A stretch of DNA of 64,000 nucleotides, taken from assembly GCF_028743515.2 (NCBI RefSeq), contig NZ_CP117969.2, positions 2,947,501-3,011,500 of the forward strand. Reading direction: 5' to 3'. The translations under genes were made by a program, and so were the position numbers. Shown here in pieces: positions 45,325-53,590 of the stretch; position 1 is the stretch's first letter; every line of letters begins with the position of its first letter. The notes under the pieces were generated by a model that had not been told where the DNA came from, made no database searches, and was given only the letters and a program-made list of their open reading frames with translations. Source of the stretch: Imtechella halotolerans (GTDB lineage: Bacteria; Bacteroidota; Bacteroidia; Flavobacteriales; Flavobacteriaceae).

Positions 45325-45367
45325 TTAGATTATACAATCAGGTCTCAACTTGATTAATTGAAATTAG

Positions 45368-45403
45368 AAACCCGTCTCGGTTCGCACTGAGACGGGTTTT
45401 TTT
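45368..45403 (+). terminator. Strong intrinsic terminator closing the glycan locus
   Basis: AAACCCGTCTC (45368-45378) pairs with GAGACGGGTTT (45389-45399) over a 10-nt loop, followed by further T residues to 45403. It lies 43 nt after the SusD stop. Confidence 0.88.
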
Positions 45404-45670: not shown

Positions 45671-45703
45671 AAAACCTTGTAAGTTTTTAATTTACAAGGT
45701 TTT
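45671..45703 (-). terminator. Terminator downstream of tRNA-Phe
   Basis: AAAACCTTGTAA (45671-45682) and TTACAAGGTTTT (45692-45703) form a 12-bp stem. On the minus strand a T-run follows, 15 nt after the tRNA 3' end. Confidence 0.8.
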
Positions 45704-45842: not shown

Positions 45843-45868
45843 ACAATTTTCTAAAAAAATATGTTTTG

Positions 45869-45876
45869 TAAATTTG
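45869..45876 (+). promoter_or_regulatory. Candidate promoter -7 box for coaX
   Basis: TAAATTTG matches TAnnTTTG and lies 17 nt before the ATG at 45894. It falls within the longer open frame beginning at 45861, which supports the downstream start. Confidence 0.45.
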
Positions 45877-45893
45877 CTTCTTTCGTTACATAT

Positions 45894-46619
45894 ATGAATT
45901 TAGTTATTGATCAGGGAAATACATTTGTAAAACTTGCTGTTTTTGAGAATAGTAGGTTAGTAGATTTGGATTCGGTTTCCTATTGTGAGGCAGAAGAGAT
46001 GCTGAAAAAAATTTTTAAAAAAAATGAAATTAAGCAGGTTATCTGGTCATCAGTAGGTGAAGCAATGCCTTTTTTTGATACTTTTTTGGATAATAAAGTA
46101 GTGTTAAGGCTAACTTCTGAAACATTGGTTCCATTCTTTAACAACTATGGGTCTCCACGTTCTCTAGGTGTCGATCGGATTGCACTGGCTGCCGCTGCCG
46201 CTGTGAATTATCCTAAGAAGAATGTTTTGGTAATTGATGCGGGTACTTGCATTACTTTTGAATTTAAGAATGCCAATGATGAATATTTGGGCGGAGCAAT
46301 TGCACCTGGAATACAGATGAGATTTAAGGCTTTGCACGATTATACGGCAAAATTGCCATTAGTTTCTTTAGCTTCTGTGGAGGATTTTATCGGAAATAAT
46401 ACAGAGACTAGTATTCTTTCTGGAGTAGTTAATAATGTAGTTCAAGAAATTGACGGTGTTATCAATCAGTATCTTGCTCGTTTTGAAGATTTAACAGTTA
46501 TTTTAACAGGTGGAGACACTCTTTTTTTGGCTGAAAGAGTAAAAAATACCATATTTGCGAATCCAAATTTCCTTTTGGAGGGTCTAAACGCTATTTTAGA
46601 ACATAATACACACGGATGA
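45894..46619 (+). CDS. coaX: Type III pantothenate kinase
   Basis: This 241-residue cytoplasmic ASKHA-fold kinase phosphorylates pantothenate, the first step of coenzyme A synthesis. MNLVIDQGNTFVKLAVFE is the phosphate-1 loop, GSPRSLGVDRIALAAAA is the family signature, and VLVIDAGTCITFEF is the phosphate-2 loop; a GGDT motif follows near the end. The ATG at 45894 is preferred over 45861 because the family begins at this loop and a promoter-like box lies between. It overlaps the next gene by 4 nt (ATGA), as expected for coupled translation. Confidence 0.94.
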   Translation: MNLVIDQGNTFVKLAVFENSRLVDLDSVSYCEAEEMLKKIFKKNEIKQVIWSSVGEAMPFFDTFLDNKVVLRLTSETLVPFFNNYGSPRSLGVDRIALAAAAAVNYPKKNVLVIDAGTCITFEFKNANDEYLGGAIAPGIQMRFKALHDYTAKLPLVSLASVEDFIGNNTETSILSGVVNNVVQEIDGVINQYLARFEDLTVILTGGDTLFLAERVKNTIFANPNFLLEGLNAILEHNTHG

Positions 46620-47881
46620 TTAAAAAAATATTTATAGCTGTTACCGTACTATTTTGCGGAAGCATATACGCACAGGAAGGAACAGCCTCTCCTTATTCAT
46701 ACTACGGAATTGGTGAGTTGAAATTTAAAGGAGTTGCCGAAAATAGGGCAATGGGTGGAATAAGCGTTTATAATGACAGTATTCATGTCAACCTTAATAA
46801 TCCTTCTGCATTTGGTTTTTTAAGGTATGCTACCTACACTGTAGGCGCTTCTTATAATTCCTATAATTTCAAGACAAATAATAACAAGGAGAATGCTTCA
46901 GCTGGTAGCTTGGATTATTTAGCTTTAGGATTCCCAATTAGCAAGAAAATGGGTCTTGGATTTGGATTGATGCCTTTTACGTCTGTTGGGTATAAGCTGC
47001 AATCGGAAGGTCTTATTGGTGAGAACAAGATGTTTGATCGTTTTTCTGGATCTGGAGGTATGAACAAGGCTTTTTTGTCATGGGGATACCAAGTTTTTAA
47101 AGGATTTAGTATTGGCGCCACTGCTAACTATGATTTTGGCAAAATGGAAAATGAAAAGTTGAAAATCATAGAAAATGTAGAAAATGCGACTCTTGAAACT
47201 AACCGTTCAGAATTAAGTGGGTTTGATTTTAATTTGGCGGCCTCATACAAAGGGAAAATCACGGATAAACTTCAAATGCAGGCCTATGTAAGTTATATCC
47301 CTGAGGCCAAAATTAGTTCTGATAATTTCCGTACCATCGCAGTAGGTAGGTTTTCTCAGACAGGATTTATTCCGGTAGATCTAGATGAGATTGATTTAGA
47401 GGCTCTGGGTATGAAATCTACAGATCTGACACTTCCTTCTGAAGCCTCTTTTGGTTTTGGAGTAGGGAGTGATAAAAAGTGGTTTTTAGGGGCTGATTAT
47501 AAAACTTCCAAGACTAGTAATTTTGCAAATCCGTTTTTGACCGTCTCTGGACTTACCTATGAGGATAGTAAGACATTCTCAGTTGGAGGGTTTTATTTGC
47601 CAAAATATAATTCATTTAGTAGCTATTTTAGTAGAGTGGTATACCGAGCTGGAATGCGATTTGAAAATACAGGAATGGTCATAAATGGTGAAACTATAAA
47701 TGATTTTGGCATATCATTTGGTATAGGATTACCAATAGGAGGATTTTCTAATGCAAATATAGGGTTTGACCTTGGTAAAAGAGGAACAACAAATTCAGGA
47801 CTTGTTCAGGAGAATTACTTCAATGTAAGAGTAGGTTTGTCGCTTAACGACAGGTGGTTTGTGAAGTCCAAATATCAATAA
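46616..47881 (+). CDS. Outer-membrane beta-barrel protein (FadL-like layout), function unknown
   Basis: This 421-residue protein has a signal peptide (residues 1-19, ending SIYAQ). After EGTASPYSYYGIGELKFKG it shows the pattern of FadL/OmpP1-like barrels (ENRAMGGISVYNDSIHVNLNNPSAFGF), with alternating strands to the end. FadL-type proteins take up hydrophobic compounds; this branch is uncharacterised. In flavobacteria it sits in a fixed order between coaX and the TPR/lptC genes, which hints at an envelope role. Its start codon overlaps the end of coaX. Confidence 0.8.
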   Translation: MIKKIFIAVTVLFCGSIYAQEGTASPYSYYGIGELKFKGVAENRAMGGISVYNDSIHVNLNNPSAFGFLRYATYTVGASYNSYNFKTNNNKENASAGSLDYLALGFPISKKMGLGFGLMPFTSVGYKLQSEGLIGENKMFDRFSGSGGMNKAFLSWGYQVFKGFSIGATANYDFGKMENEKLKIIENVENATLETNRSELSGFDFNLAASYKGKITDKLQMQAYVSYIPEAKISSDNFRTIAVGRFSQTGFIPVDLDEIDLEALGMKSTDLTLPSEASFGFGVGSDKKWFLGADYKTSKTSNFANPFLTVSGLTYEDSKTFSVGGFYLPKYNSFSSYFSRVVYRAGMRFENTGMVINGETINDFGISFGIGLPIGGFSNANIGFDLGKRGTTNSGLVQENYFNVRVGLSLNDRWFVKSKYQ

Positions 47882-47899: not shown

Positions 47900-49234
47900 A
47901 TGAAGAAGAACATTACATTATTACTTGCGGTATTTTTAGGTTCGGTGAGCCTGGCAAGTGTACATGCTCAAGATGCTGATTGCTCAACTAATCTTTCTAT
48001 TTTTAACGAGCATGCTAAGGTGAAAAACTATGATGCTGCTTATGAGCCTTGGTTGGTGGTATATAATAATTGTCCTGAATTGCATTTTGCTACTTTTTAT
48101 TACGGTGAAAGGATATTATCTCATAAGATTGAAAATGCTACAGGAGATGAAAGGACTAAGTTTATAGGTGATTTGGAAAAATTATATGATGGGTATATAC
48201 AATATCACCCTTCTAGAATTACCAAAGCAGATGTGTATATTAAGAAGGCCTTATTGTTATATGATACTAAGACGGGTACCGAGGATGAAATATATGGTTT
48301 TTTAGATAAGGCTTTTGTTGAAGACAGAGGTAACTTTAAAAATGAGAAGGCAATGTATATTTATTTCTTAACCTTGGTAGATTTAAACAAGGCTGGGAAG
48401 AAAGACTTGCAGTTAGTGTTTGATACCTATGATAATGTGAACGAAAAAATAGAAGATGAAAAAGCTGTTCTTTCGGATCAAATTAACTCATTGCTTCCAG
48501 CTGAGGAGGCGGGTACTTTAGATTCTAAATCTAAAAGAACGTTGGATAATGCTCGTGCACGTGTAGACAACTATCTTTCAATTAGTGAGAGTATCGATGC
48601 TACTTTAGGTAACTTGGCAGATTGTGATAACTTGATTCCTTTGTACGAGAAAAACTTTGCTGAAAAATCAAGTGATGCAGAGTGGTTAAAGCGTGCTGCA
48701 GGTAAAATGTCGGATAAAGATTGTACTTCTGATCCTTTATTTGTGAAGTTAGTTGAGTCTTTACACTCTCTTGAACCATCGGCATCTTCAGCCTACTATT
48801 TAGGAGTATTGAATGAAAAAAATGGAAAATCTGCGGAGGCAATTAAATTCTTTAATCAGTCTGTGGACTTAGAGACCGATAACTTTAAAAAGTCTAGAGT
48901 TTTGGTAAAAATAGCTACTAAAATGGGTAAAGCTTCTGCTGTAAACTATGCAAATAAGGCATTGCAGTTTAATGCATCTAACTCTGATGCCTATAGAATT
49001 ATTGCTCATGCGTATGCTTCTAGTGCTAACGAATGTGGAACTACTTCCTTTGAAAAGAGAGCGATTTACTGGTTAGCTGCACAAACAGCAAGAAAGGGTG
49101 GTTTGGAATCTTTAGCAGCACGTTATGATGCTTTAGCTCCTTCTAGATCAGACATATTTGCGGAAGGAATGTCTGGTAAAACTATTACTTTTAAATGTTG
49201 GGTAGGAAAGAGTGTAAAAGTTCCATCACTATAA
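47900..49234 (+). CDS. Periplasmic tetratricopeptide-repeat protein
   Basis: This 444-residue protein has a signal peptide (residues 1-23, ending SVHAQ). The rest is helical with TPR-like units, clearest at about residues 290-385 (SSAYYLGVLNEKNGKSAEAIKFF, then a unit with KASAVNYANKAL). Such proteins scaffold other proteins; no partner can be named. It lies 18 nt after the barrel gene and 4 nt before lptC. A terminator-like hairpin inside the lptC start may end part of this transcript. Confidence 0.8.
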   Translation: MKKNITLLLAVFLGSVSLASVHAQDADCSTNLSIFNEHAKVKNYDAAYEPWLVVYNNCPELHFATFYYGERILSHKIENATGDERTKFIGDLEKLYDGYIQYHPSRITKADVYIKKALLLYDTKTGTEDEIYGFLDKAFVEDRGNFKNEKAMYIYFLTLVDLNKAGKKDLQLVFDTYDNVNEKIEDEKAVLSDQINSLLPAEEAGTLDSKSKRTLDNARARVDNYLSISESIDATLGNLADCDNLIPLYEKNFAEKSSDAEWLKRAAGKMSDKDCTSDPLFVKLVESLHSLEPSASSAYYLGVLNEKNGKSAEAIKFFNQSVDLETDNFKKSRVLVKIATKMGKASAVNYANKALQFNASNSDAYRIIAHAYASSANECGTTSFEKRAIYWLAAQTARKGGLESLAARYDALAPSRSDIFAEGMSGKTITFKCWVGKSVKVPSL

Positions 49235-49238
49235 TGTA

Positions 49239-49832
49239 TTGATGAAACCACAATTAAAAAATAAATTATTAAACATTGTCACAGTTCTTGCTGTGACAAT
49301 GTTTTTTTCATGCCAAAGCAATCTTAGTGAAATTGAAAAGATGCGCTTTACGGAAAAGTTTCCTAATGGTATTGCTGAGAACTTTGTTCTTACCTACACT
49401 GATTCTGCCAAAGTTAAAGCGATATTAAGGAGTGTTCTTAATGAAGATTTTTCTAATCAGAGTTTCCCTTATTCAGAATTCCCTAAAGGTCTACAGGTAG
49501 ACTTTTTTGACGATTTGAATAATAAAAGTACCGTTACAGCTCAATATGGTATTTTATATTCAAATACCAATTTAGTAGAATTAAGAGATAGTGTTGTTCT
49601 AAAAACGCATGATGGTAAAGTTTTGGAGACCTCACAGCTTTTTTGGGATCAAAAGAATGAATGGGTTTTTACCGAGAAAAAGTTTACCTTTACCAATCCG
49701 AAAGAAGGAACCATTATGAATGGTGAGGGTATGGATTTTAACAAAGATTTTTCCATAGCCAAAGCACATAAGACCTTTGGTGTATTTGCTATAGAAGATA
49801 GAGAGGTTTCTGCTTCTGGAGAAGAACAATAG
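49239..49832 (+). CDS. lptC: LPS export ABC transporter periplasmic protein LptC (lipoprotein form)
   Basis: This 197-residue protein has an N-terminal hydrophobic stretch LLNIVTVLAVTMFFSC with a lipobox-like Cys at 25. The body is the beta-jellyroll LptC fold seen in Bacteroidota: DFFDDLNNKSTVTAQYGILY, DSVVLKTHDGKVLETSQLFW and NGEGMDFNKDFS match the repeated beta strands of LptA/LptC. LptC receives LPS from the LptBFG transporter and passes it on. The codons for the signal peptide form a near-perfect intrinsic terminator (see 49271-49308), a striking overlap. Confidence 0.85.
   Translation: MMKPQLKNKLLNIVTVLAVTMFFSCQSNLSEIEKMRFTEKFPNGIAENFVLTYTDSAKVKAILRSVLNEDFSNQSFPYSEFPKGLQVDFFDDLNNKSTVTAQYGILYSNTNLVELRDSVVLKTHDGKVLETSQLFWDQKNEWVFTEKKFTFTNPKEGTIMNGEGMDFNKDFSIAKAHKTFGVFAIEDREVSASGEEQ
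49271..49308 (+). terminator. Terminator-like hairpin inside the lptC signal-peptide codons
   Basis: AAACATTGTCACAG (49271-49284) and CTGTGACAATGTTT (49291-49304) are perfect 14-bp inverted copies with a 6-nt loop. A run of seven T residues occupies 49302-49308. It has every mark of a Rho-independent terminator, 37 nt after the TPR gene stop, yet it encodes residues 11-23 of LptC. It may reduce lptC transcription or attenuate it conditionally. Confidence 0.65.
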
Positions 49833-49884: not shown

Positions 49885-50082
49885 ATGAAGTTTTTGAAAT
49901 TTTTTGAGTATGTCTATCTAGGAGTAGCAATTTTATCTCTAATAGAGGTTTTTAATGAGTGGAACAGTCCTGATAAAACCAGGTTGTATATTTTTATTCT
50001 CTTTGCCGCTGTTTCTCTTTTTATGTTTTTCTTCAGACGTCGCTATCGTCAGCGATTTGAGAACAGAAGAAAAGATCAATAG
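49885..50082 (+). CDS. Small two-helix membrane protein, conserved hypothetical
   Basis: This 65-residue protein has two hydrophobic helices (about 5-22 and 33-50). It ends in a strongly basic tail, FFRRRYRQRFENRRKDQ, which should stay in the cytoplasm. I recognise no function. A gene of this type commonly lies between lptC and the CBS/CorC gene in flavobacteria, which supports it being real. The next gene starts 8 nt downstream. Confidence 0.7.
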   Translation: MKFLKFFEYVYLGVAILSLIEVFNEWNSPDKTRLYIFILFAAVSLFMFFFRRRYRQRFENRRKDQ

Positions 50083-50090
50083 TTTTTAGT

Positions 50091-51341
50091 ATGTTTTCGT
50101 TACTTGTTGTAGTTGGCATTTGTTTGTTCTTATCTGCATTTTTTTCAGGTATGGAGATCGCGTATGTATCTTCCAATAAGATTCATATTGAGATTGCTAA
50201 AAAACAGGGAGGCTTTTTAGCTGGCATACTTACCAAGATTACAGAGAAGCCTTCTAAGTTTATAGCTGCGATGTTAGTTGGTAATAGCATCACATTGGTG
50301 GTGTATGGATTTGTGATGAGTGATTGGATTATGAATACACTACCAGTTACATATCATAATTTGTGGTGGCAAATCGGTATAGCAGGACTAGTCATTCTTA
50401 TTACGGCTGAATTTTTGCCTAAGATACTTTTTCAATTACATGCAAATTCTTTATTAAAGTTTTTTGCAATACCAGCTTACTTTTTTTATAGACTTTTTTC
50501 TCCAATTTCTTCATTTGTTATTTGGGTTTCTGATTCTTTAATGAGAATTCTTTTTAAAACTAATAATAATGAGATGCAACTAACTATTAGCAGGGATGAA
50601 TTAGGGGATTATATAACGGAGCAGATGGAGCAGGTGGATGAAGATCAGGAGGTTGATTCGGAAATTCAACTTTTCCAGAATGCTTTGGAATTTGCTGAAG
50701 TAAAAGCTAGAGAAGTAATGATCCCGAGAACGGAGATTACAGCTGTGGAATTTCGTGAAAAACCACAAGATCTGGTTCGGCTTTTTACGGAAACTGGCTA
50801 TTCAAAAATTCTAGTTTACAAGGATACTGTGGATGATATTATTGGGTATGTCCATTCTTTTGAAATGTTTAAAAAACCCAAAACAATTAAAAGTATAATG
50901 CTTTCTGTGGAATATGTCCCTGAAACCATGTTGATTAATGATGTGCTAAGTATTCTTATGAAAAAACGTAAGAGTATGGCGGTAGTGCTTGATGAATACG
51001 GAGGGACTTCTGGAATTATTACTGTGGAAGATATAGTTGAAGAGCTATTTGGAGAAATCGAAGATGAGCATGATACTGTAGAGCTTCAGGAAGAGCAGTT
51101 AAGTGATGCTGAGTTTCTTTTTTCCGCTCGTTTAGAAGTGGATTACCTTAATGAGTCTTATAAGCTTAATTTACCTGAAAGTGAAAATTATGAAACACTT
51201 GGGGGGCTAATAGTGAATCATTATGAAGACATTCCTGAGCAGGGTGAGCGTGTGGTAGTAGGAGAGTATCATTTTATTATTGAGGAGGTAGCAAGTACTA
51301 AAATTCTAACAGTACGTCTTAAAATAGTACCGGAGGAATAA
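50091..51341 (+). CDS. Hemolysin-family (CNNM/CorC) CBS-domain membrane protein
   Basis: This 416-residue inner-membrane protein has an N-terminal DUF21/CNNM domain with four helices (residues 1-140, FFSGMEIAYVSSNKI being typical). A CBS pair follows (about 205-325, REVMIPRTEITAVE and MAVVLDEYGGTSGIITVEDIVEELFGEI). A C-terminal CorC_HlyC domain (about 335-416) ends it. Family members handle magnesium or other divalent metals; the 'hemolysin' name is historical. It resembles GldE in layout, but the gld partners are not here, so I do not use that name. Confidence 0.9.
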   Translation: MFSLLVVVGICLFLSAFFSGMEIAYVSSNKIHIEIAKKQGGFLAGILTKITEKPSKFIAAMLVGNSITLVVYGFVMSDWIMNTLPVTYHNLWWQIGIAGLVILITAEFLPKILFQLHANSLLKFFAIPAYFFYRLFSPISSFVIWVSDSLMRILFKTNNNEMQLTISRDELGDYITEQMEQVDEDQEVDSEIQLFQNALEFAEVKAREVMIPRTEITAVEFREKPQDLVRLFTETGYSKILVYKDTVDDIIGYVHSFEMFKKPKTIKSIMLSVEYVPETMLINDVLSILMKKRKSMAVVLDEYGGTSGIITVEDIVEELFGEIEDEHDTVELQEEQLSDAEFLFSARLEVDYLNESYKLNLPESENYETLGGLIVNHYEDIPEQGERVVVGEYHFIIEEVASTKILTVRLKIVPEE

Positions 51342-51469: not shown

Positions 51470-53590
51470 ATGGCTATTCTTGAAAAAATTAGAAACAGGT
51501 CACTATTTCTTATCCTTATTATTGGTTTGGCATTGTTTGCTTTCGTTATTTCCGATTTAATTGGAAAAGGTGATTTCAGCGCGCTAAAATCAAGTTCTAC
51601 CATAGGTGAAGTAAATGGAGAAACCCTCTCGGTGGAGGATTTTAGATTGAAAGCAGAGAGCACTATGCAAAACTTAGGTCCTAATGCCAGTACAACACAA
51701 GCTGTAAATATGGTATGGGAGCAAGAAGTCCGCAACACAATCTTAGCTCAAGAGTTTGAAAAAATTGGATTGAGTATTGAAAAAGATCAAATCATTAATC
51801 TGGTAAAAAATAATCCAGCAATTGCTCAAAGTCCAATGTTTCAAAATGAAGCTGGTATTTTTGACGATGCAAAGTTTATTGAATACATAGCAGATTTAAA
51901 AGTATCTAGTCCTGATGCCTATGCCCAATGGACTATGCAGGAAGATGCCATTATAGAAAATGCGAAACAACAAACCTATTTTAATTTAATTAAAGCTGGA
52001 TTAGGGACTACTGCTAAAGAAGGTGAATGGGTGTATCGTCAGGAAGCCGATAAGGTGGATGTTTCTTTTGTTCAATTGCCTTATTCTTCCATTGCAGACA
52101 GTACCTTAACTATTTCTGATAGTGAGATAAAAGCGTACATGAGTAAGCGTAAGGATGATTTCAAACAGGAGTCCATGCGTAATATTCAATATGTTTTTGT
52201 AGAAGAAAAAGCTTCAGAAGGGGACATTAATACTGTAAAGGAGAATATAACAAAATTGTTAAGTTCTTCTGTAGAGTTTAATCAGGACACCAATAGCAAT
52301 GATACTATTCCTGGTTTCTCTACAGTTACTAATGTGGAGGATTTTGTTAATAAGCATTCGGATATTGCTTATGATTCTACCTTCGTTACAAAGAAACAAT
52401 TGCCATCATTACAGGCAGAGGATCTTTTCGCGTTAGAAGTTGGAGCGGTTTATGGTCCTTATGAGGATAATGGATATTTTAAGATTTCCAAAATGACCGC
52501 TAAGAGACCCAATGGGAGTGCTCGTGCGAGTCATATTTTGGTAGCATATCAAGGTGCTCAAAATGCTAATCCATCTTTGGTTCGCACTAAAGAAGCGGCC
52601 AAGGCTAAAATAGATTCATTGTTGATAGAAGTTAAAAAGCCTGAGGTGGATTTTGCTACAGTAGCTCGTGAAAATTCTGAAGATGGTGCTGCTTCTCAAG
52701 GTGGAGATTTAGGTTTCTTCCAAAAGGGAGATATGGTAAAACCTTTTGCTGACTATGTGTTCGGTAATGGAGTAGGTAGTATTGGTGTTGTTGAAACTGA
52801 TTTCGGATATCATATTGTTAAAATTACAGAAAAAGAAGATGTAGTTCAATTGGCTACCATAGCTCAAGAGATTGAAGCTTCCGAGAATACTATTAATGAT
52901 TTATTTGCCCAGGCAACTAAATTTGAAATGGCGGCGACCGAGGATTATAAAAACTTTGGTGATATTGCTAAAGGAATGGAGATGAATGTTCTTCGTGCTG
53001 ATAATTTATTGGCTATTGATGAGTATATAGTAGGTTTAGGTAGTCAAAGAAGCATCGTTCAATGGGCTTTTGCTAAGGATACCAAGCATGGAAATGTAAA
53101 GCGTTTTAGTGTAAATAATGGATATGTTATAGCGCAGCTCACTAAGAAAACGGAGGAAGGATTAGCAGCAGTTAAAGATGCACGTCCTTTTGTAGAACCA
53201 ATTTTGATTAAAGAGAAAAAGGCTGAATTGTTGAAAAAGAAAATGGAAGGGAAGTCCATGCAGGATATCGCGTCTGCTAACAAAGTAGAGGTGAAAACGG
53301 CAACAGGCCTTACTATGAAGAATCCATTACTTGGGGATGCTGGTAGAGAGCCTAGAGTTGTTGGTACTGCATTTGCACTTGAAAAAAATGCTACATCTGG
53401 CGCTATTGAAGGTAGTAATGGGGTTTATATGATTCAAGTTACTAATTTGAATATTGCTCCTAAACTTGATAGCTATAAAACATATATGGCTAATGCGACT
53501 ACCTTAAAGGTAAATCGTGCTGGTCAGACAGTATACTTGGCTTTACGTAAAGCTGCAGAGGTTGAAGACAATCGCGCAATGTTCTACTAG
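51470..53590 (+). CDS. ppiD: Peptidyl-prolyl isomerase, PpiD/SurA-like membrane-anchored chaperone
   Basis: This 706-residue protein has one N-terminal membrane helix (residues 11-30, LFLILIIGLALFAFVISDLI) anchoring it in the inner membrane with the rest in the periplasm. A SurA_N-like region follows (about 40-220), then a parvulin rotamase domain (about 345-460: ARASHILVAYQG, SQGGDLGFFQKGDMVKPF, VETDFGYHIVKI), then a second parvulin-like stretch of weaker form. It assists folding of exported proteins near the Sec translocon. It has an independent leader after the CBS/CorC gene's terminator. Confidence 0.9.
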   Translation: MAILEKIRNRSLFLILIIGLALFAFVISDLIGKGDFSALKSSSTIGEVNGETLSVEDFRLKAESTMQNLGPNASTTQAVNMVWEQEVRNTILAQEFEKIGLSIEKDQIINLVKNNPAIAQSPMFQNEAGIFDDAKFIEYIADLKVSSPDAYAQWTMQEDAIIENAKQQTYFNLIKAGLGTTAKEGEWVYRQEADKVDVSFVQLPYSSIADSTLTISDSEIKAYMSKRKDDFKQESMRNIQYVFVEEKASEGDINTVKENITKLLSSSVEFNQDTNSNDTIPGFSTVTNVEDFVNKHSDIAYDSTFVTKKQLPSLQAEDLFALEVGAVYGPYEDNGYFKISKMTAKRPNGSARASHILVAYQGAQNANPSLVRTKEAAKAKIDSLLIEVKKPEVDFATVARENSEDGAASQGGDLGFFQKGDMVKPFADYVFGNGVGSIGVVETDFGYHIVKITEKEDVVQLATIAQEIEASENTINDLFAQATKFEMAATEDYKNFGDIAKGMEMNVLRADNLLAIDEYIVGLGSQRSIVQWAFAKDTKHGNVKRFSVNNGYVIAQLTKKTEEGLAAVKDARPFVEPILIKEKKAELLKKKMEGKSMQDIASANKVEVKTATGLTMKNPLLGDAGREPRVVGTAFALEKNATSGAIEGSNGVYMIQVTNLNIAPKLDSYKTYMANATTLKVNRAGQTVYLALRKAAEVEDNRAMFY

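Follow-up and report, generated by a model that had tools for sequence, protein, structure and literature searches.

A terminator-like hairpin encoded in the lptC signal peptide of Imtechella halotolerans is conserved among relatives and tracks the upstream gene

Is the stem-loop that lies within the first codons of lptC in Imtechella halotolerans a transcription terminator, and if so, to which gene does it belong? The window, a 64,000-nucleotide stretch of DNA, sits in a closed 3.11-Mb genome and carries the hairpin within a run of plus-strand genes, in the order coaX, outer-membrane protein, TPR, lptC, 65-aa ORF, CNNM/CorC and SurA/PpiD-like.

45861..46619, plus strand: coaX, type III pantothenate kinase
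46616..47881, plus strand: outer-membrane protein gene, with a weak Toluene_X/FadL match below the Pfam cut-off
47900..49234, plus strand: upstream gene, termed 'TPR' in the original prediction, its stop 7 nt before the lptC ATG
49242..49832, plus strand: lptC (Pfam PF06835), with a lipoprotein-type signal peptide and Cys24
49271..49304, plus strand: hairpin, with arms at 49271-49284 and 49291-49304 and loop at 49285-49290; covariation and G-U bias in relatives
49302..49308, plus strand: U-tract of seven T, seen in the sequence; U selected in relatives
49885..50082, plus strand: 65-aa ORF between lptC and corC; similar ORFs found by tblastn in several relatives
50091..51341, plus strand: CNNM/CorC-type transporter gene, downstream of the hairpin
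51470..53590, plus strand: SurA/PpiD-like peptidyl-prolyl isomerase gene, downstream of the hairpin

The genes on either side of the hairpin run in the same direction and belong to a conserved cluster, which is the placement of an operon-internal terminator. The TPR gene gave no Pfam match at an E value of 0.001, and Cys24 of LptC was invariant in 15 aligned LptC proteins. The named relatives by LptC were Flavobacteriaceae such as Allomuricauda, Maribacter, Zobellia and Eudoraea, mostly of 45-53% identity, and the 60 genomes listed included none of the same genus. Other strong hairpins in the window were seen at 45366-45401 (16 pairs, with a T-tail) and 45671-45703 (15 pairs), and a 13-pair hairpin was seen on the minus strand at 53643-53614, just past the SurA-like gene. 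A sigma-70 style promoter scan was at chance level (31 found, 33.8 expected).

The original prediction described a perfect 14-bp stem, a 6-nt loop and seven T residues inside the lptC signal peptide, and this was confirmed from the sequence. The 5' arm is AAACATTGTCACAG, the loop TTCTTG and the 3' arm CTGTGACAATGTTT; the first three T of the U-tract also pair in the stem and four lie beyond it, giving a stable stem-loop with a U-tract directly behind, as in an intrinsic (Rho-independent) terminator. RNAfold closed one extra pair, resulting in 15 pairs and a 4-nt loop. The stem occupies codons 10-21 of lptC and the U-tract extends to codon 23, in the hydrophobic part of the signal peptide before Cys24, and the codons for NIVTVLAVTMFF had been read correctly. 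The hairpin was rightly placed inside lptC and soon after the upstream gene, and only the two distances needed adjustment: the stem starts 29 nt past the A of the ATG at 49242 (the earlier figure of 32 nt counts from a TTG at 49239), and 36 nt rather than 37 nt separate it from the upstream stop at 49232-49234. Its folding energy of -20.6 kcal/mol is stronger than that of 58 of 65 terminator-like hairpins sampled between genes of this genome. When the 111-nt context was compared with 200 dinucleotide shuffles, z was -3.3 and 2 of the shuffles folded equally well. The exact stem pattern has a single occurrence in the 3.11-Mb genome, and the next-best match of a covariance model in the same genome reached E = 0.005 (150 of 2618 first-look candidates scored).

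Among the 74 terminator-like hairpins detected in 464 kb of this genome, 65 were intergenic, 7 antisense and 2 in sense orientation inside ORFs, the one in lptC being the strong one of the two; of the 117 co-directional gaps that measured 24-300 nt in this sample, 26 held such a hairpin. Among 243 terminator-like hairpins in 905 kb of the named relatives' loci, 57 lay in sense orientation inside an ORF, 43 of these in lptC and 14 in other genes. At looser settings, a hairpin was present at 3 of 762 other gene starts and in 13 of 2286 random internal windows. Terminator-like hairpins were also seen in L065, L085, L089 and L104 (near positions 1348-2185), where they lie about 31-37 nt past the called start of an ORF of 357-367 aa; this start codon may have been wrongly assigned, and the hairpin may belong to a leader.

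The effect of the encoded protein was assessed through synonymous recoding, a test that was not filtered for hairpin presence. At this locus, the observed -21.1 kcal/mol stood against -9.7 kcal/mol (sd 3.8) for the recodings, 1 of 300 being as low. Across 103 loci, including the window's own and drawn from 107 (left out were L020, where no Cys was within reach, and L026, L097 and L105, which matched too far inside), z was below -2 in 98 and below -3 in 78, counts that are not independent, as many of the loci are close relatives. The loci failing z < -2 were L087, L093, L006, L065 and L010, and the fixed 51-nt window of the test missed hairpins in L149, L166, L168 and L199 that were detected later. 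Chance or protein constraint alone was rejected by this synonymous null together with the scarcity at other gene starts. That repeated Val-Thr and Ile-Ala residues form the hairpin unaided, as a coincidence of codon choice, has on its side that Val-Thr codons (GTNAC) are self-complementary and that recoded versions still fold to the average given above, but given how few recodings fold as low, the z scores in relatives and the compensatory changes in the stem, we regard its probability as negligible.

Pairing of the stem was found to be maintained in relatives. In 68 rows aligned without gaps, the 14 pairs had 93.6% of their cells paired, although these rows were chosen from hairpin-passing loci (156 of 202), a choice that favours pairing, and related rows are not independent. 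Of the 14 pairs, 13 change on both sides with pairing kept, amounting to 198 such cells in the 68 rows; with the partner slid by 1-3 columns only 27-55% of cells were paired, and none of 500 shuffles reached any of these measures. RNAalifold independently predicted 13 of the 14 pairs. The 68 rows were taken from 82 centre-aligned loci, 14 being omitted by choice (mostly other families with shorter stems), and counts on all 82 rows agreed with those on the 68. The original prediction had named stem conservation in relatives as a check, and both stem and U-tract proved to be conserved, with compensatory changes.

Departures from pairing reveal the strand on which selection acts. In the 68 rows there were 78 G-U and 4 A-C departures, a ratio of 19.5 compared with 1.9 (maximum 2.18) in shuffles, and all 82 rows gave 99 G-U and 5 A-C, compared with a ratio of 1.8 (at most 2.08) in shuffles. 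This excess of G-U over A-C in the sense strand shows that it is the sense RNA that is selected, and not a DNA palindrome or an antisense RNA. A DNA palindrome, serving as the binding site of a dimeric regulator or in some other DNA-level function, would account for the near-perfect dyad symmetry of the hairpin DNA, but the symmetry carries the RNA-type wobble bias just described and the stem sequences vary widely among relatives, so that an operator palindrome was rejected as a candidate and is very improbable as an explanation.

The U-tract is likewise under selection. Phe codons at the four positions before the Cys were counted in 80 non-redundant loci that were not filtered for hairpin, this count and the synonymous recoding being the two tests free of such filtering. 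TTT was used in 130 of them and TTC in 1, against 100.8 TTT expected from codon usage, and Phe codons wholly beyond the stem were TTT in 67 of 67 cases (expected 51.9). As controls, the 20 codons after the Cys had TTT in 61 of 74 (expected 57.6) and 32 loci of hairpin-less lineages had 13 of 15 (expected 10.3, z 1.6), whilst the whole mature lptC had 755 of 978 (expected 717.3, sd 13.4), a mild excess that makes it not quite neutral. Leu codons on the 3' side were CTT in 47 of 74 cases (expected 15.1), part of them within the stem. Conservation of both a sense-RNA structure and a U-tract is as expected for an intrinsic terminator.

The position of the element was then compared with the space available before lptC. 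A single rule was used to classify 279 loci, of which 33 near-duplicates were dropped, 7 were left unclassified and 1 was without the Cys, leaving 238 to be counted. In most of the fetched Flavobacteriaceae loci, the lptC start falls anywhere from 1 nt ahead of the upstream stop to a few nt past it. With gaps of up to 23 nt, the hairpin lay inside lptC in 140 of 180 loci and was absent in 40, the absence of a terminator from such gaps being forced, as there is no room. Gaps of 24-39 nt had the element inside lptC in 4 cases, in the gap in 1 and nowhere in 3, and gaps of 40-62 nt had it inside lptC in 11 (9 of these from genus g57), in the gap in 8 and nowhere in 7. Beyond 62 nt, a terminator was found in the gap in 20 of 24 loci, none in 4, and inside lptC in no case. 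These 24 loci comprised 20 from f22, the others coming from f1, f19, f24 and f25, so that with 20 of 24 from one family the number of independent moves is small: f22 and L143, where the TPR gene is present, and L198 and L203, where it is absent. In L143, the gap is 256 nt, lptC is without the hairpin, and a 21-bp terminator (-31.8 kcal/mol) lies 19 nt past the upstream stop; 15 further loci of its genus were added (16 matching genomes including L143, best LptC matches first). The 40 short-gap loci without a hairpin at the thresholds used were 23 relatives at class or phylum level and 17 within the order, 7 of the latter in genomes of at most 2 Mb and the other 10 being six from g61 together with L062, L121, L170 and L171.

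Loci were also added, as best LptC matches, for the class-level families f22 (best 30 of 41), f21 (best 15 of 25) and f25 (best 15 of 30). In the f22 set, a terminator occupied 2 of 9 other gaps of these loci, and TAnnTTTG, which we take to be the Bacteroidota -7 element, was found near the lptC start in 14 of 26 gap-type loci of that set (expected 1.0), so that lptC of this family looks as if it were a separate transcription unit. Where the hairpin is in the gene (n = 155), its median distance from the upstream stop was 31 nt, and 132 of 155 lay at 27 nt or more. In 112 of 156 loci the distance between its centre and the assigned start codon was 45.5 nt, a constancy that may reflect protein constraint or be important in itself. 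L199 (the same place as L301, f25) has a 21-bp hairpin of -35.9 kcal/mol that spans -2 to +49 of the lptC start and includes the start codon, and might therefore block translation as well as end transcription.

The presence of the element was found to follow the TPR gene. A TPR profile was made from the window protein plus 40 of the 179 matches of a first round, which means that some loci are in their own model. It matched 187 of the 238 loci when sought across the whole fetched locus (1-12 kb, mostly about 1.5 or 6 kb upstream) and so beyond the adjacent ORF; 167 of these 187 had a terminator, located in lptC in 140 and in the gap in 27. Among the 51 loci lacking a TPR match, 17 had a terminator, namely 11 from g57, 3 from f5 and one each from f18, f24 and f29. 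Relatives of the TPR gene occur in the class-level families f21, f22 and f25 as well. A terminator was present there in 7 of 7 f21 loci with TPR and 0 of 8 without (best 15 of 25), in 12 of 12 f25 loci with and 0 of 3 without (best 15 of 30), and in 26 of 28 f22 loci with and 0 of 2 without (best 30 of 41). The TPR gene was present and the element absent in 20 of 187 loci, 8 of which were among the 13 loci of g61. As the element tracks the TPR gene, it is better described as a terminator behind TPR than as a feature of lptC.

An in-lptC hairpin was found under 14 of 33 clade labels (two of these labels being genera of f1 and one comprising three MAG loci). Among the 14 families of the same order it was present in f1, f2, f3, f4, f5, f7, f13 and f14 and absent from f8, f10, f11, f12, f15 and f16, these hairpin-less families being represented by one to three loci each, from genomes of at most 2.0 Mb and with some loci unclassified. 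The covariance model matched lptC of G044 (f9, 1.7 Mb), and a small genome therefore does not exclude the element. Among class-level relatives, it lies inside lptC in f21, in f25 and in a single f18 locus. In L184 (G021:C1:1686500-1691500), a second, partial lptC-like copy lies about 2 kb downstream, interrupted by stops and with its own copy of the hairpin.

Given the conserved structure and a position that follows the gene boundary and the TPR gene, a terminator is the best reading: the element is probably an intrinsic terminator behind the TPR gene that is coded in lptC and limits transcription into lptC-corC-surA. Confidence in this reading is lowered by most gap-type loci belonging to one family, which the TPR link offsets in part. 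The double use of the bases that had been proposed, as terminator and as signal-peptide codons, is supported by conservation and by the tracking of gene boundary and TPR, and we infer termination in the cell, its efficiency and its effect on dosage from the sequence. The terminator would end the transcription unit that finishes with the TPR gene and, where lptC abuts TPR, would double as an operon-internal terminator for lptC-corC-surA. Polymerase arriving from upstream would make the hairpin about 30 nt past the TPR stop and about 30 nt past the lptC start, and then the U-tract, at which a share of polymerases would stop. The ribosome finishing TPR would halt too far back to mask the stem and that initiating lptC would rarely arrive in time, and read-through transcripts would carry lptC and the later genes, giving these a lower dosage than the upstream genes. 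According to the available text of PMC4824070, tR2, a terminator studied in E. coli, is almost entirely repressed when it lies a few bp past a stop codon and is maximal beyond about 27-30 nt, works efficiently within the first 100 bp of a coding region, and at 30 bp after the AUG loses about 10% of its efficiency to translation. At 36 nt from the stop and 29 nt from the ATG, neither ribosome should mask the lptC hairpin, if E. coli is a guide. Against a terminator, truncated transcripts would bear the start of lptC without a stop codon.

How lptC is transcribed bears on the same question. TAnnTTTG was near lptC in only 1 of 94 abutting Flavobacteriaceae loci (expected 2.8), and lptC therefore seems to be supplied by read-through or by a promoter of another form. 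A strict scan for TTG-spacer-TAnnTT[TC]G gave 4 matches in 96 loci, none of them within 150 nt of the lptC start. Genus g57 is mostly without the TPR gene, yet the hairpin lies inside lptC in 13 of its 17 loci. TAnnTTTG is right at the lptC start in 8 of the 13 g57 loci with a gap of at least 37 nt; in L124, L128 and L131, for example, it ends 4 nt before the start codon. An mRNA from this promoter-like element would be nearly leaderless.

The structure might instead act in the finished mRNA, in RNase processing, in stability or by slowing translation of the signal peptide, with the U-tract serving the same role. That the structure is one of sense RNA and keeps a fairly constant spacing from the start codon would suit this, but lineages with room carry the hairpin in the gap before lptC, the element tracks the upstream gene rather than lptC, and the U-tract beyond the stem is selected, all of which make such a role quite unlikely. 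A known riboswitch or other Rfam element was also rejected as a candidate, since the search of 48900-49700 gave weak sub-threshold matches only (no family at gathering score, the best match having 30.5 bits against a gathering score of 47).

Regulated attenuation survives somewhat better. Here, read-through would answer a signal, be it the initiation rate of lptC, an RNA-binding factor or an antiterminator, and lptC-corC-surA would be switched on demand. In g57, the transcript on which the hairpin would act is that of lptC itself. This favours attenuation, as a plain end-of-gene terminator needs no place downstream of lptC's own promoter-like element, or else a relic by which transcripts of the outer-membrane protein gene are now ended. 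The distance from centre to start is also kept though the N-terminal residues vary. The antiterminator that the original prediction offered as one option was not borne out: a simple complement search of 220 nt upstream in 59 loci found no pairing to either arm that competes with the stem, the mean longest complement being 5.20 in own against 5.27 in other loci for the 5' arm and 5.24 against 5.18 for the 3' arm. Moreover, the hairpin codons show strong synonymous conservation and most of the final 25 codons of TPR are close to what is expected, and, as above, no Rfam family reached gathering score. A regulated attenuator is therefore possible but, in our estimate, unlikely.

A bolder and equally tentative proposal, which we consider doubtful, is that the terminator in the signal peptide serves the LPS-export genes as a regulatory gate, one that senses the capacity to begin making LptC. 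Transcripts from upstream would be cut off at about codon 23 of lptC, whereas those with a promptly ribosome-loaded lptC start, perhaps the leaderless ones of g57, would escape. LptC, CorC and SurA would then be adjusted together, and the gate would have shaped signal-peptide residues since before several families of the order parted.

Under the preferred reading of a terminator behind the TPR gene, one stretch of DNA is held under two lasting constraints, protein and RNA, the compensatory changes altering both codons and amino acids. In genomes where the genes abut, lptC, and perhaps corC and surA, are then predicted to depend on terminator read-through for their expression. Surveys that dismiss hairpins in coding sequence as chance would probably miss such elements. 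As lineages with and without abutment and with and without TPR exist, the purpose of coding-embedded terminators is directly testable.

Leader-peptide attenuators such as those of trp and pyrBI have a terminator close behind a start codon, where the position of the ribosome could matter. Unlike in these, the coding sequence concerned is the beginning of lptC itself, and the search for antiterminator pairing found none. None of the matches listed in the open-licence literature describes an lptC terminator: the main text of a Flavobacterium psychrophilum transcriptome paper, so far as available, contains neither lptC nor hairpin (PMC9723704), and the available main text of an E. coli study has no word beginning with 'lpt' and no 'signal peptide' (PMC7815308). 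The class of mechanism is known, and we have not found described its residence in signal-peptide codons with compensatory change and intergenic counterparts. In clostridial ABC-importer operons, as given in the accessible portion of PMC9045158, internal terminators with efficiencies of 20.7-96.1% set stoichiometry and, like the lptC element, consist of a hairpin and U-rich tail between co-directional genes, but they are described there as intergenic, whereas the lptC hairpin lies inside signal-peptide codons and covaries under protein constraint. In Methanococcus maripaludis, internal-operon termination accompanies lower downstream expression, similar to what is proposed for lptC, although this is an archaeon and the available text describes no hairpin coded in a signal peptide (PMC10450193). 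Natural 3' ends inside ORFs occur in E. coli, of which at least one (aceK int) has an intrinsic-terminator score in the part of the report at hand (PMC7815308). The nearest geometry is found in the available part of PMC4824070, which also mentions the pyrBI attenuator: tR2, when engineered 30 bp inside an E. coli ORF (plasmid W48), sits almost as the lptC hairpin does and keeps most of its efficiency, and where that construct is artificial, the lptC element is natural and conserved.
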